In this document: piece after piece, positions 4,087 through 10,545 of the stretch
Numbering within the stretch: the stretch's first letter is position 1
How the letters are laid out: the number at the start of each line of letters is the position of its first letter
From: Porticoccaceae bacterium
GTDB lineage: Bacteria; Pseudomonadota; Gammaproteobacteria; Pseudomonadales; Porticoccaceae
Direction of reading: 5' to 3'
Assembly (NCBI GenBank): GCA_018664075.1
Contig: JABJOY010000070.1
Span: forward strand, 1 to 64,000
DNA length: 64,000 bases
Position numbers and translations under genes: made by a program
Notes under the pieces: model-generated
Told to the model about the DNA's origin: nothing
Database searches by the model: none
Seen by the model: only the letters and a program-made list of their open reading frames with translations

Positions 4087-5493
4087 TTAGCAGCTGTAGT
4101 ACATATCAAACTCAACCGGGTGAGTGGTGTGCTCAACACGGTAGACTTCTTCCATCTTCAGCTCGATGTAGGCATCGATCATATCATCGGTGAATACACC
4201 ACCGGCTGTCAGGAACTCACGGTCCGCATCAAGAGCATCCAGTGCTTCACGCAGGCTGCCAGCAACCTGAGGGATAGCAGCAGCTTCTTCAGCAGGCAGA
4301 TCATAGAGATCTTTGTCCGCTGCATCGCCTGGGTGGATCTTGTTCTTAATGCCGTCCAAACCTGCCATCAGCATAGAGGCAAACATCAGGTATGGGTTAG
4401 CTGTAGGATCACCGAATCGTGCTTCGATACGCTTGCCTTTGGGGCTTGGCACGTACGGGATACGGATTGAAGCAGAGCGGTTGCGAGCAGAGTAGGCCAG
4501 CATTACAGGTGCTTCAAAGCCCGGGATCAGACGCTTATAGGAGTTAGTTGAAGCGTTGGCGAAGGCGTTGATTGCTTTGGCGTGCTTGATAATGCCGCCG
4601 ATGTAGAACAGAGCCATTTCGCTCAGGCCAGCATAGCCGTCTCCAGCGAACTGGTTTTCGCCATCTTTCCAGAAAGACTGGTGACAGTGCATGCCGGAAC
4701 CGTTGTCACCAACGATTGGCTTGGGCATGAAAGTCGCAGTCTTGCCATAGGCGTGGGCTACGTTGTGCACGCAGTACTTCATAATTTGCACCTGGTCAGC
4801 TTTCTTAACCAGAGTGTCAAAACGAATGCCGATCTCACACTGACCAGCAGTACCTACTTCGTGGTGATGTACCTCTACTTCGAGACCCATCTGCTCCATA
4901 GCACCACACATTGCGGCACGCAGATCGTGCAGGCTGTCGACTGGTGGTACGGGGAAGTAACCGCCTTTAACGCCAGGACGGTGGCCCATATTGCCGTCAG
5001 CCAGCTCCATGGATGAAGACCAGGCTGCTTCATCAGAATTGATTTTGTAAAAGGCACCGCTCATGTCGGCACCCCATTTGATATCGTCAAATACGAAGAA
5101 CTCTGGCTCCGGGCCAAAGAATGCTGTGTCGCCGAGACCAGTAGACTGCAGGTATTGCTCTGCACGCTCAGCGATGGAGCGTGGATCGCGCTCGTAGCCT
5201 TGCATTGTGGAAGGCTCAACGATTCCGCAACGGATAATTACTGTTGGCTCATCAGTGAAAGGATCCAGAATTGCAGTGCTGTCATCAGGCATCAGGATCA
5301 TGTCTGATTCGTTAATGCTCTTCCAACCGGCAATAGACGAACCGTCAAACATTTTACCTTCAACAAAAAAGTCATCGCCCACTTCACCGACCGGAATCGA
5401 TACGTGCTGCTCTTTACCTTTGGTGTCAGTGAATCGAAGGTCAACCCAACGAGCTTCGCTATCTTTAATCAGATTTAGAGTCTTCTCAGACAT
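4087..5493 (-). CDS. glnA: Type I glutamine synthetase
   Basis: Full-length GlnA motifs ([38 protein letters not shown]); start at [10 protein letters not shown]. Confidence 0.98.
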
Positions 5494-5765: not shown

Positions 5766-5874
5766 AAATTTATTTAAATTAGATTTATTTTTCGCTGACT
5801 CGGTATAATGCCCACCTCCGAGACTTCTGTCACCTTTTAACGGGGTTTTTAGCAAGCCTCACAACCACAGGGCT

Positions 5875-6165
5875 GTGACTATCGATTCCTCATCAACCCA
5901 TATGCGCCATACATCCAGGGTCAGCGCCACAGATATCCTGATTGATGTGCGACATCCAGCTGACGCTGAACAGAAGCCATTGAGCATTCCTGATATCCAG
6001 ATACTCAACATTCCATTCTTTAATCTTGAGCAGCAGCTGGGCGCTTTGGATAAAACCTGCAGCTACCTGCTGTACTGCGACAAGGGCATTATGAGCCGCT
6101 TGCAGGCCCAGCTTATGCGCGACAAAGGCTTTGAACAGGTCGCCGTTTATAATCAGATTACCTAG
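5875..6165 (+). CDS. Stand-alone rhodanese domain homologous to the ThiI C-terminus
   Basis: LIDVRHPADAEQKPLSIPDIQILNIPFFNLEQQLG...YLLYCDKGIMSRLQAQLMRDKGFEQVAVYN resembles the ThiI C-terminal rhodanese domain, including the Cys-loop; GTG start, or ATG at 5902. Confidence 0.85.
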   Translation: MTIDSSSTHMRHTSRVSATDILIDVRHPADAEQKPLSIPDIQILNIPFFNLEQQLGALDKTCSYLLYCDKGIMSRLQAQLMRDKGFEQVAVYNQIT

Positions 6166-6295: not shown

Positions 6296-8656
6296 ATGCA
6301 GCCGATGACAAGCAGAGATTCAGATCTCAGTGGGAGCAAGGAAGCTAGAGAAATCAGCTCTTCCCCTCCAGATCCTTCCGTACAGCTTGAGTTAGACCAG
6401 CAGATCACAGCCGACCTGAAATCTGGTTTGGCGATTTTTGTGATTGCTGGCATTCTGCTGTTTTTGGTTGCCCAATATCATTCCAACAACCCCCTGAGCT
6501 ATCTATGGCTTGGCGGGCTCTTGATCACTAGTCTGTACCTCTGGGTCTGGCAGCATAGAAAGCCTCAGCAGCAGGCTACTGCCAAGATCACAGTGGTTAT
6601 CTGCGCCCTCTTTTGCTGCCTGGCGGTGCTGCTGTTTATCACTCCGGGCCAAGTGGCCTACAGCCTGACCATCAGTGCCATTATTATCGGGTTTAGCGCC
6701 CTGTGGCCCATATTGCAACTGCAATTGCCAATCTATCGCCACTTATTTCTGCTGAGCATATTTTTATCCACCGCAATCACTCTGCTGCTGCGACTGCCAG
6801 ACAGCAGCCTTATTCCTGTGGCCATGATTGTGATTGTTTATTTGGCGGTGAATCGCTCCTGCACAGTCTATCGCCGCGGATTTATTGCCAGTATCCACAG
6901 AGCTCAGCAGGCCAACGAACTGACTCGCCAGGCAGTCAATACCAGTAAAAAGATTACCAGCTTAATTGAGCAGACACCGCTGGGCTTTATTGAATGGAAT
7001 CAAAATCGGGAGATTATTAACTGGAATCCGGCCGCCACCACTATTTTTGGCTTTTCCAAAGATGAAGCCCTGAGTCGCACCACAGATTTTTTGTTCGAAG
7101 ACAAAAAAACCTTCCTTATGCAGCAGGCAGAGCACGACCTGTTTTTATTCGGCAAAGACTTTTCCGGCACCGCAGAAAATATCACCAGCGACGGCACCAG
7201 CATCATCTGCGAATGGAATGAAACGCCCTTATTTGACGATGATATGAATGTTATTGGTGCAGCTTCATTTGTCGAAGATGTCACTGACCGGGTGCGCATG
7301 CAGACCCGCATCAAACAGCAGGCATATTTTGACCCATTGACTGGCCTACCCAATCGCCATCGCTTGATGGAGGAGTTAAATCGGGTTATTTCACTAGCCC
7401 AGCGGACGCAAAATTTCTGTGCTCTGCTGTTTATCGATCTCGACCATTTCAAAGAGATCAATGACAGTCGCGGCCACCATTACGGTGATCTGGCCCTGAC
7501 CATGTTTGCCCAGAGACTGCGCAAGGTAATCCGTACCCAGGAGACCGTCGCCCGACTCGGCGGTGATGAGTTTGTGGTACTGCTGGAACGGCTCGGCACC
7601 GAGGGCGAGACTGCAAGACTACAAATTGCCCAGGTAGCCGAAAAAATAATCGACGCGGCCAATGAGCAATTTATTATTAAAGGGGAGAAATTCCAGATTA
7701 GCTGCAGCATAGGCATTGTGTTTTTTAATGATGGCAGCAGCGATGGCAACAGTATTCTCGAACAGGCGGACCAGGCCCTGTACACCATCAAGCGGGAGGG
7801 CAAGTCGAACTATTATTTCCACAACCGCGAGCTGTCCATTGAGATGCAAAAGCAGATGGAATTGCTGGAGCGTCTGCGGGATGAGTCTCAGGCCGAATCT
7901 TTCCTGCCTTTTTACCAGCCGGTGCTGAACACCCAGAGCAACCTGATCAGCGGCCTGCAAATCTTTTTACGCTGGCAGAACCCCAAAGGCGATATTGTCG
8001 AGGCCCATGAATTTATTCAGGTGCTGGAGTCTGGCTCAATGATCGTGGATATTACATTATCCCTGATCGAGCAGGTGTGCAAACAGGTCAATCTGTGGCG
8101 CAGCCAGGGAATCTGGCAGGACCAGCAGCGCATCTTTTTAACCCTCAGCTTGCGGGAACTGGGCCACCCGGCATTTATTCAGCAGCTCAAGGATATTACT
8201 CAGAGACACGGCATAAAACCGGGGGCCTTTATGTTTGGCTTGCACACTGAGATTCTGCCGAAACTGAATGCGTCTCTGGAATTGCAGCTCAGTCGTCTGG
8301 TTGAACTTGGCTGCGGGCTACTGGTGGACAATGTCGGCTACCAGAGCCTGCCTCTGCAAAAACTCCGCGAGCTGCAGATTGAAACCATTCGCATATCCCA
8401 TCGCCTTATGGCTGAATCCAGTGACATTGAAAGCTCCTGGAATCTGGTAAAAGGGCTGGTAGAACTCAGTAAATCCGTCGGTTTGAACTGCATTGCCCCC
8501 TGCGTTGAGGAGGCTGATATCCACCATCAACTACTGGATTTAGACTGCATTTTTCTGCAGGGAAACCTAATTGCACCCCCCTCGCCACCCACCTCAATCA
8601 CGCGAATGTTGATTGAGCGTAATTCAAGCCCCAGAGCAGAAGTCAGCCCCAGCTAA
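6296..8656 (+). CDS. Membrane PAS-GGDEF-EAL protein with degenerate EAL domain
   Basis: N-terminal TM helices, PAS ([13 protein letters not shown]), GGDEF motif [12 protein letters not shown], divergent EAL (GLQIFLRW). Confidence 0.92.
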
Positions 8657-8733
8657 AAAGATCGGTAGCAGTTCCTGTGGATTCTCGTATAATCGCGGGT
8701 TTTTCGCCCACTGCGGTAATCTTAGGTACCATC

Positions 8734-10545
8734 ATGTCCATTGAAAACTTGCGTAATATTGCGATCATCGCCCACGTTGACCACGGTAAAACTACTCTGG
8801 TTGATAAACTCCTGAGCCAGTCCGGGACTCTCGACCGCAAAGATGTCGGCTCCGAGCGTTTGATGGACTCCAATGACCAGGAAAAAGAGCGCGGCATCAC
8901 CATTCTGGCTAAAAATACCGCGATCAACTGGAATGACTACCGCATTAATATTGTAGATACACCAGGTCACGCCGATTTCGGTGGTGAGGTTGAGCGCGTT
9001 CTATCCATGGTCGACTCTGTGTTGCTGCTGGTTGATGCAGTTGACGGGCCAATGCCCCAGACGCGCTTTGTAACCTCCAAAGCTTTTGAGCAGGGCCTGC
9101 GACCCATTGTTGTTATCAACAAGGTTGACCGCCCGGGCGCCCGCCCGGACTGGGTTATGGATCAGGTATTTGATCTGTTCGACAGTCTCGGTGCTACAGA
9201 CGAACAACTGGATTTCCCGGTAATCTACGCCTCCGCATTAAATGGCATTGCCGGCCATGATGTAGACGATATGGCCGAAGATATGACGCCGCTCTACGAA
9301 ATGATTGTTGCCGATGTTCCTTCGCCCAAGGTTGATGTGGACGCGCCATTCCAGATGCAGGTATCAGCCCTGGCCTATGACAGCTATGTTGGTGTTATTG
9401 GTGTCGGTCGTATTACCAGAGGCAAGCTCAAACCTGGTCAGCAGGTAGTTGTGAAAGCTGCTGATGGCAACGAGCGCAAAGGCAAGGTGCTCAACGTAAA
9501 AGGCTATCTAGGTCTTGAACAGGTAGAAACGCAGCTGGCAACTGCTGGCGACATTGTTTGTATCAACGGTATTGACGGACTGGGCATATCAGACACTTTG
9601 TGCGACCCGGATAATATCGAAGCTCTGCCCGCACTGAGTGTAGATGAGCCGACGGTAAGCATGACCTTTATCGTTAACAACTCGCCATTTGCCGGCCTAG
9701 AAGGCAAGTTTGTCACCACCAGAAATATTAAAGACCGTCTGGAGCAAGAACTGATTCACAATGTTGCCCTGCGCGTTAAACAGGGTGATTCCCCGGATAA
9801 GTTTATTGTCTCCGGCCGCGGTGAATTGCACCTGTCGGTACTGATCGAAACCATGCGTCGGGAAGGTTTTGAAATGGGCGTGTCCCGTCCGGAAGTTGTC
9901 ACCAAAGAAGTGGATGGCGAAATCCAGGAGCCCTACGAGCAAGTGGTGATCGATGTAGAAGATCAGCATCAGGGCTCAGTGATGGAAGAGCTGGGCATGC
10001 GCAAAGGCGAGATGACCAATATGGAACCAGACGGCAAAGGTCGCGTGCGACTGGAGTTTATGATTCCTTCCCGGGGGCTGATTGGCTTCCGCGGTGCTTT
10101 TCTCACCTTGACCAGTGGCTCAGGCATTATGACCAGCGTATTTGATCATTATGGCCCTGTGAAAGGCGGCGAAGCTCACAGCCGCCAAAATGGCGCACTG
10201 ATCAGCATGGTTAAGGGCAAAACTGCTGCCTTCGCCCTGTTTAATATCCAGGCCCGAGGGCGTCTGTTCCTCGGCCATGCCATCGATGTTTACGAAGGCC
10301 AGATTGTCGGCATTCACTCCCGGGGCAATGATCTGGTGGTCAACCCGATCAAGGGCAAACAGCTGACCAATGTTCGTGCCTCAGGCACAGACGAAGCTCT
10401 GACACTGGTACCACCAATCAGGCATACCCTTGAGCAGGCTCTGGAATTTATCGAAGATGATGAGCTGGTAGAAGTAACCCCCCAGAGCATTCGCCTGCGT
10501 AAAAAGCTGCTAACTGAGAACCTGCGCAAACGCGCACCAAAATAA
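8734..10545 (+). CDS. typA: Ribosome-associated translational GTPase TypA/BipA
   Basis: [45 protein letters not shown]; start at [11 protein letters not shown] inside the ORF. Confidence 0.97.

Follow-up and report, generated by a model that had tools for sequence, protein, structure and literature searches.

A stand-alone ThiI-type rhodanese domain retained in the SAR92 genus without the ThiI tRNA-thiolation module or a thiazole pathway

What is a rhodanese domain of the ThiI type kept for when it stands alone? Stand-alone ThiI rhodanese domains have so far been interpreted as remnants retained for vitamin B1. SAR92, an abundant marine clade, keeps such a domain without the B1 pathway, and the window (the whole stretch of 64,000 nucleotides that was analysed) carries one example next to glnA. 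The domain is conserved, is under purifying selection and retains its catalytic cysteine, and neither of the known ThiI clients occurs in the source genome. The new point is that a stand-alone ThiI rhodanese domain has been retained across a free-living genus after the loss of both known ThiI functions; no paper on such retention was found in the open-access literature. The case makes an old question testable, namely whether MoeB proteins lacking a rhodanese domain use a separate one, and the same holds for the source of sulfur for molybdopterin and tRNA in lineages that lack TusA.

Identity of the open reading frame and its locus

The open reading frame (ORF) at 5875..6165 (+ strand; GTG start, 96 residues plus stop) was assigned as a stand-alone ThiI-type rhodanese domain, a predicted persulfide carrier, using TIGR04271, alignment, dN/dS and AlphaFold2. 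It scored 106.1 bits against NCBIfam TIGR04271 (ThiI_C_thiazole; cut-off 70), with residues 6–93 of the ORF matched to positions 13–100 of the 101-position profile, and 28.1 bits against the Pfam Rhodanese model (cut-off 22.2). Rhodanese was the sole domain returned by the Pfam scan of the ORF, which gave no TusA domain (PF01206). The AlphaFold2 model, calculated with an alignment of 41 relatives, has a mean pLDDT of 87.7, and its best matches in the PDB are rhodanese domains. The catalytic cysteine is C68 (YLLYCDKGIMSRL) in the loop YCDKGIMSRL; the segment C-D-K-G-I-M-S-R is encoded at 6076..6099 (+ strand), and C68 is the predicted persulfide cysteine, equivalent to Cys456 of E. coli ThiI. 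The loop has the form C-x-x-G-x-x-S (C68-D-K-G71-I-M-S74), and its C, G, M and S are invariant in 41 of 41 aligned copies. Twelve residues are invariant in this alignment (D24, R26, H27, P28, L58, Y64, C68, G71, M73, S74, G85 and F86). The identification made in the preliminary description, that of a ThiI C-terminal rhodanese domain with its catalytic cysteine, is thus upheld, and the cysteine is kept in the relatives as well.

The divergent upstream neighbour is glnA (4087..5493, − strand; from the ORF list, with an ATG start assumed), at 370–380 bp from the rhodanese ORF and kept in this position in most relatives. The downstream neighbour typA (8677..10545, + strand; ORF list) also keeps its position in relatives, and the order ntrC-ntrB-glnA, domain, typA is found in most of them. 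In genome G039, a full thiI occupies the slot between glnA and typA that is held elsewhere by the stand-alone domain. A GGDEF-EAL type protein of 786 residues, called by sequence features, is encoded at 6296–8656 between the rhodanese gene and typA; its gene is found at the locus in many congeners and is absent or shortened there in others. In several SAR92 genomes the glnA match beside the rhodanese ORF has 26–28% identity over about 180–230 residues, or glnA was not seen, which suggests that the usual glnA has been replaced at the locus.

A predicted −10 box, TATAAT (GGTATAATGCCC; 5804..5809, + strand), called from sequence only, would belong to the gene's own promoter, and most relatives have a comparable GTATAATG or CTATAATG motif ahead of the ORF. 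A CACAG-GG-CTGTG dyad (5866..5877, unstranded) had also been pointed out and is present in the sequence. By a simple estimate (64000/4^5), chance alone would give about 60 five-base dyads of this form in 64 kb. In G011, the closest relative (75% protein identity), the dyad is imperfect and reads CATAGGGCTGTG; the dyad of the window is therefore probably due to chance and carries no weight. In G065, G066 and G067, no ATG, GTG or TTG was found from the upstream in-frame stop to the conserved domain of the rhodanese ORF. Use of ATT, ATC or ATA as start codons is possible in such ORFs. In G012 and G050 a strong ribosome site, GGAGGA, directly precedes an ATC.

Retention of the domain and loss of the two ThiI functions

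The stand-alone domain was found in 43 of the 50 members of the genus (SAR92 clade, Porticoccaceae), including the isolates HTCC2207 (CH672396.1), H231, H921 and MOLA455. The copy in G051 is cut by a contig end, and that in G017 has a frameshift, which may be a sequencing error. Within the family genera searched, the short form is confined to the source genus (g1) and a second genus (g15), the latter with three such genomes. The ThiI domain is fused in g16–g20 and g22–g26, mostly in frames of about 490–575 residues, single genomes excepted, and no ThiI-type domain was found in g21 and g27. In a tree of 83 columns the stand-alone domains of the genus form a single group (94/91), as one truncation event would predict, and joining g15 to this group was not rejected (AU p = 0.28). 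The viral contigs searched held no relative.

A decaying remnant of thiI without function had been named as the alternative to retention. Such decay is in keeping with the damaged copies of two congeners, G017 with its doubtful frameshift and G062, which has lost the invariant Arg26, and with the lack of the domain in several small genomes. Against it, dN/dS values (Nei–Gojobori) across close pairs are 0.06–0.28, with no relaxed selection, and most congeners carry the domain. Because of these values, the invariant active-site residues of the 41 aligned sequences, the conserved position and the conserved promoter-like box, the domain, judged by comparison of its copies, is kept under purifying selection and is not a decaying remnant; decay is a highly improbable explanation.

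The THUMP and PP-loop parts of ThiI were searched for in the source genome with the PF02568 and TIGR00342 models, which returned short MnmA-like partial matches only; no separate THUMP/PP-loop ThiI was found elsewhere in that genome. The TIGR00342 cut-off was passed by 0 of 23 genus members and by eight other genomes of the order. The first 390 residues of E. coli ThiI gave no match in the flanks of the stand-alone relatives, including the short gap to glnA, and the same query finds the full gene in G039. A 372-residue PP-loop protein of the source genome was considered as ThiI and rejected, being MnmA-sized and matching at only 38–40 positions. The searches support the view of the preliminary description that the tRNA-thiolation module of ThiI is gone and the rhodanese half kept. 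As the ThiI THUMP/PP-loop was not found, s4U8 is predicted to be absent from the tRNA.

The earlier proposal that the domain was retained for thiazole, and so for thiamine, fared differently. In Salmonella the ThiI rhodanese domain reportedly supports thiazole synthesis, and the family model TIGR04271 is named for that role. Retention for this purpose has also been proposed for insect symbionts: truncated thiI with the rhodanese part only is known from symbionts that keep a thiamine pathway (PMC10654098), and a Wigglesworthia genome has a stand-alone ORF of like kind. In the source genome, no ThiC, ThiE, ThiD, ThiM, ThiG, ThiH, ThiS or Thi4 was found, and ThiL is the only thiamine protein detected. 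When E. coli ThiC, ThiE, ThiD, ThiM, ThiL, ThiH and ThiS were run as a chained query against the source genome and ten congeners, ThiL alone was found in ten of the 11 genomes (the source and nine congeners) and the remaining pathway only in G001. ThiG is absent from 48 of the 50 congeners, the source genome among them. The source genome is 93% complete, and the single-contig genomes G018 and G022 agree on the missing thiamine genes. Thi4 was considered as an alternative thiazole enzyme and discarded, its matches being short, located at the nucleotide-binding motif and of at most 37 bits. ThiG-like matches of 23–28 bits, seen in the source genome and in four of the congeners, are pieces of other proteins, about 325 residues long, and were not counted.

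The thiG carriers in SAR92 are G001 (contig C232) and G071 (contig C59), which probably regained the gene by transfer in a lineage otherwise without the pathway. The G001 thi cluster comprises thiC (the product 85% identical to E. coli ThiC over 271 residues), thiO, thiS, thiG, a fused thiD-thiE and a ThiF that carries a rhodanese domain of its own; because of this ThiF-rhodanese, the stand-alone domain is not obviously needed for thiazole in G001. Unless a non-homologous thiazole pathway exists, retention for thiazole is already refuted by the gene content, and we give it next to no credence. With the thiazole and thiamine genes missing, the domain must be retained for something else. As the clade has no B1 pathway, the thiazole-biosynthesis annotation misleads and the domain is no evidence of thiamine synthesis; the strain most likely depends on an external supply of thiamine or thiamine phosphate.

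Candidate clients of the sulfur carrier

In E. coli, TusA feeds MoaD and TusD (the latter in the TusBCD–TusE–MnmA relay), whereas in humans MOCS2A is supplied by the rhodanese domain of MOCS3 (PMC5372717); the footprints of ThiI and TusA on IscS overlap (PMC2854127). None of the 50 genus members has TusA (PF01206), nor does any of the three g15 members with the stand-alone form. In the family TusA is restricted to g18, g19, g24 and g25, all genera with fused ThiI, and because several other fused-ThiI genera also lack it, the loss of TusA seems to be older than the truncation of ThiI. The sulfur acceptors left in the source genome are TtcA, TusE, the MnmA-sized PP-loop protein and MoaD/MoaE/MoeB; TtcA and TusE are found with or without the stand-alone domain. 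Most genera of the family lack TusA, yet the SAR92 genus keeps TusE. E. coli queries for TusB, TusC and TusD, a search of low sensitivity, gave no match, and no tusB, tusC or tusD lies beside TusE in G000 and G018. We also considered that tusBCD might have been deleted from the interval between yccA and tusE, and rejected this because the two genes are neighbours in E. coli too, where tusBCD lies elsewhere.

The source genome has a complete moaC-moaD-moaE-mobA-moeB-moaB-moeA-moaA operon. Its MoaD ends in GG (...PPVTGG), and its MoeB (257 residues) consists of a ThiF domain only, with no rhodanese. For MoeB proteins that lack a rhodanese domain, a requirement for a stand-alone rhodanese has been proposed, with GlpE and PspE ruled out in E. 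coli (PMC2593051). Within the genus, 37 genomes have both the domain and the short-MoeB molybdenum cofactor (Moco) operon, five have neither, six the domain only and two the operon only (Fisher p = 0.0036, a value that ignores phylogeny); for genomes at least 90% complete the counts are 25 both, three neither, one and one (Fisher p = 0.0038, phylogeny likewise ignored). The six domain-only genomes are 74–90% complete, and G053 and G052 (92% and 74% complete) are exceptions inside the genus. Among the genomes without the domain, G005 and G010 have a different Moco operon; MoeB of G005 (contig C68, 5880-6911) is fused to a divergent rhodanese domain, and the matching operon of G010 (contig C13) is cut by a contig end. 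G008, G014 and G073, also without the domain, gave no MoaE or MoeB match, G062 with its lost Arg26 gave no Moco match, and ThiI, TusA and Moco are all lacking in two genomes of g21 and in the two smallest of g23. The Moco operon of the source genome, with a short MoeB, is also present in g27 (G111, G112, G118 and G119) and in G082, which lack both TusA and a ThiI-type domain and in which no further rhodanese gene was found within or next to that operon, so that MoeB can manage without the stand-alone domain. In no case was the stand-alone gene seen next to Moco or tus genes, and domain absences cluster in small genomes. As a pattern of gene content the co-occurrence of the domain with Moco genes is suggestive, and shared descent and streamlining may explain it.

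By analogy with the known carriers, the stand-alone domain could be a stand-in for TusA that feeds MoeB–MoaD and perhaps TusE–MnmA. The THUMP/PP-loop part of ThiI would have been lost in the ancestor of the SAR92 genus, leaving a free-standing persulfide carrier that, like the ThiI domain, would still receive its sulfur from IscS, a cysteine desulfurase. TusA would already have been lost in the lineage, and the stand-alone domain would have taken over its delivery. The most likely client would be MoaD bound to MoeB in molybdopterin synthesis, as for the fused rhodanese half of human MOCS3, with TusE–MnmA (2-thiouridine in tRNA) as a possible second. We hold the TusA stand-in only tentatively, and a client of another kind is equally likely, because completeness, genome size and descent confound the co-occurrence. 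Put more broadly, and with slightly more reserve, ThiI might have been rewired so that its rhodanese domain became a general IscS-fed carrier replacing TusA, serving molybdopterin synthase and perhaps tRNA 2-thiolation.

The main client could instead be the 2-thiouridine relay, with sulfur passing from IscS to the domain, on to TusE (TusABCD having been lost) and then to MnmA. The presence of TusE and an MnmA-sized PP-loop protein, together with the lack of TusA and of detectable TusBCD, speaks for this route. TusE persists, however, in the domain-less genomes G005, G008, G010 and G014 and so does not need the stand-alone domain; the TusBCD result has the low sensitivity given above, and in Gram-positive bacteria MnmA can receive sulfur straight from a desulfurase. 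We regard this relay as an unlikely main client. Another client altogether, for example one that handles persulfide or cyanide, or a sulfurated product as yet unknown, has the same tentative standing as the TusA stand-in: no tested partner tracks the domain perfectly, and many single-domain rhodaneses lack an assigned role (PMC2593051), whereas retention of the ThiI-specific sequence suggests that interactions, for example with IscS, are conserved.

Comparison with known systems

The SAR92 domain shares its family (TIGR04271) and loop type (C-x-x-G-x-M-S) with the C-terminal rhodanese domain of E. coli and Salmonella ThiI. It differs in that the THUMP and PP-loop parts are missing from the protein, and the source genome has neither the s4U enzyme nor the thiazole pathway. 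In the insect symbionts (Wigglesworthia, Arsenophonus of Ornithoica and Candidatus Pantoea) the truncated thiI is tied to a retained thiamine pathway, whereas SAR92 is free-living, has lost that pathway and keeps the domain across a genus. With respect to TusA, the SAR92 domain would fill the place between IscS and MoaD or TusE; the two families are unrelated, and the replacement is proposed from the absence of TusA alone. The function would be that of MOCS3 and the MoeB–rhodanese fusions (Moco and Urm1 sulfuration), in which a persulfide donor serves a MoaD-type carrier activated by a MoeB-type enzyme. In contrast to these fusions, the SAR92 domain is encoded on its own and belongs to the ThiI type of rhodanese, not to that of MOCS3; its gene has no genomic link to moeB, and its client role is predicted.
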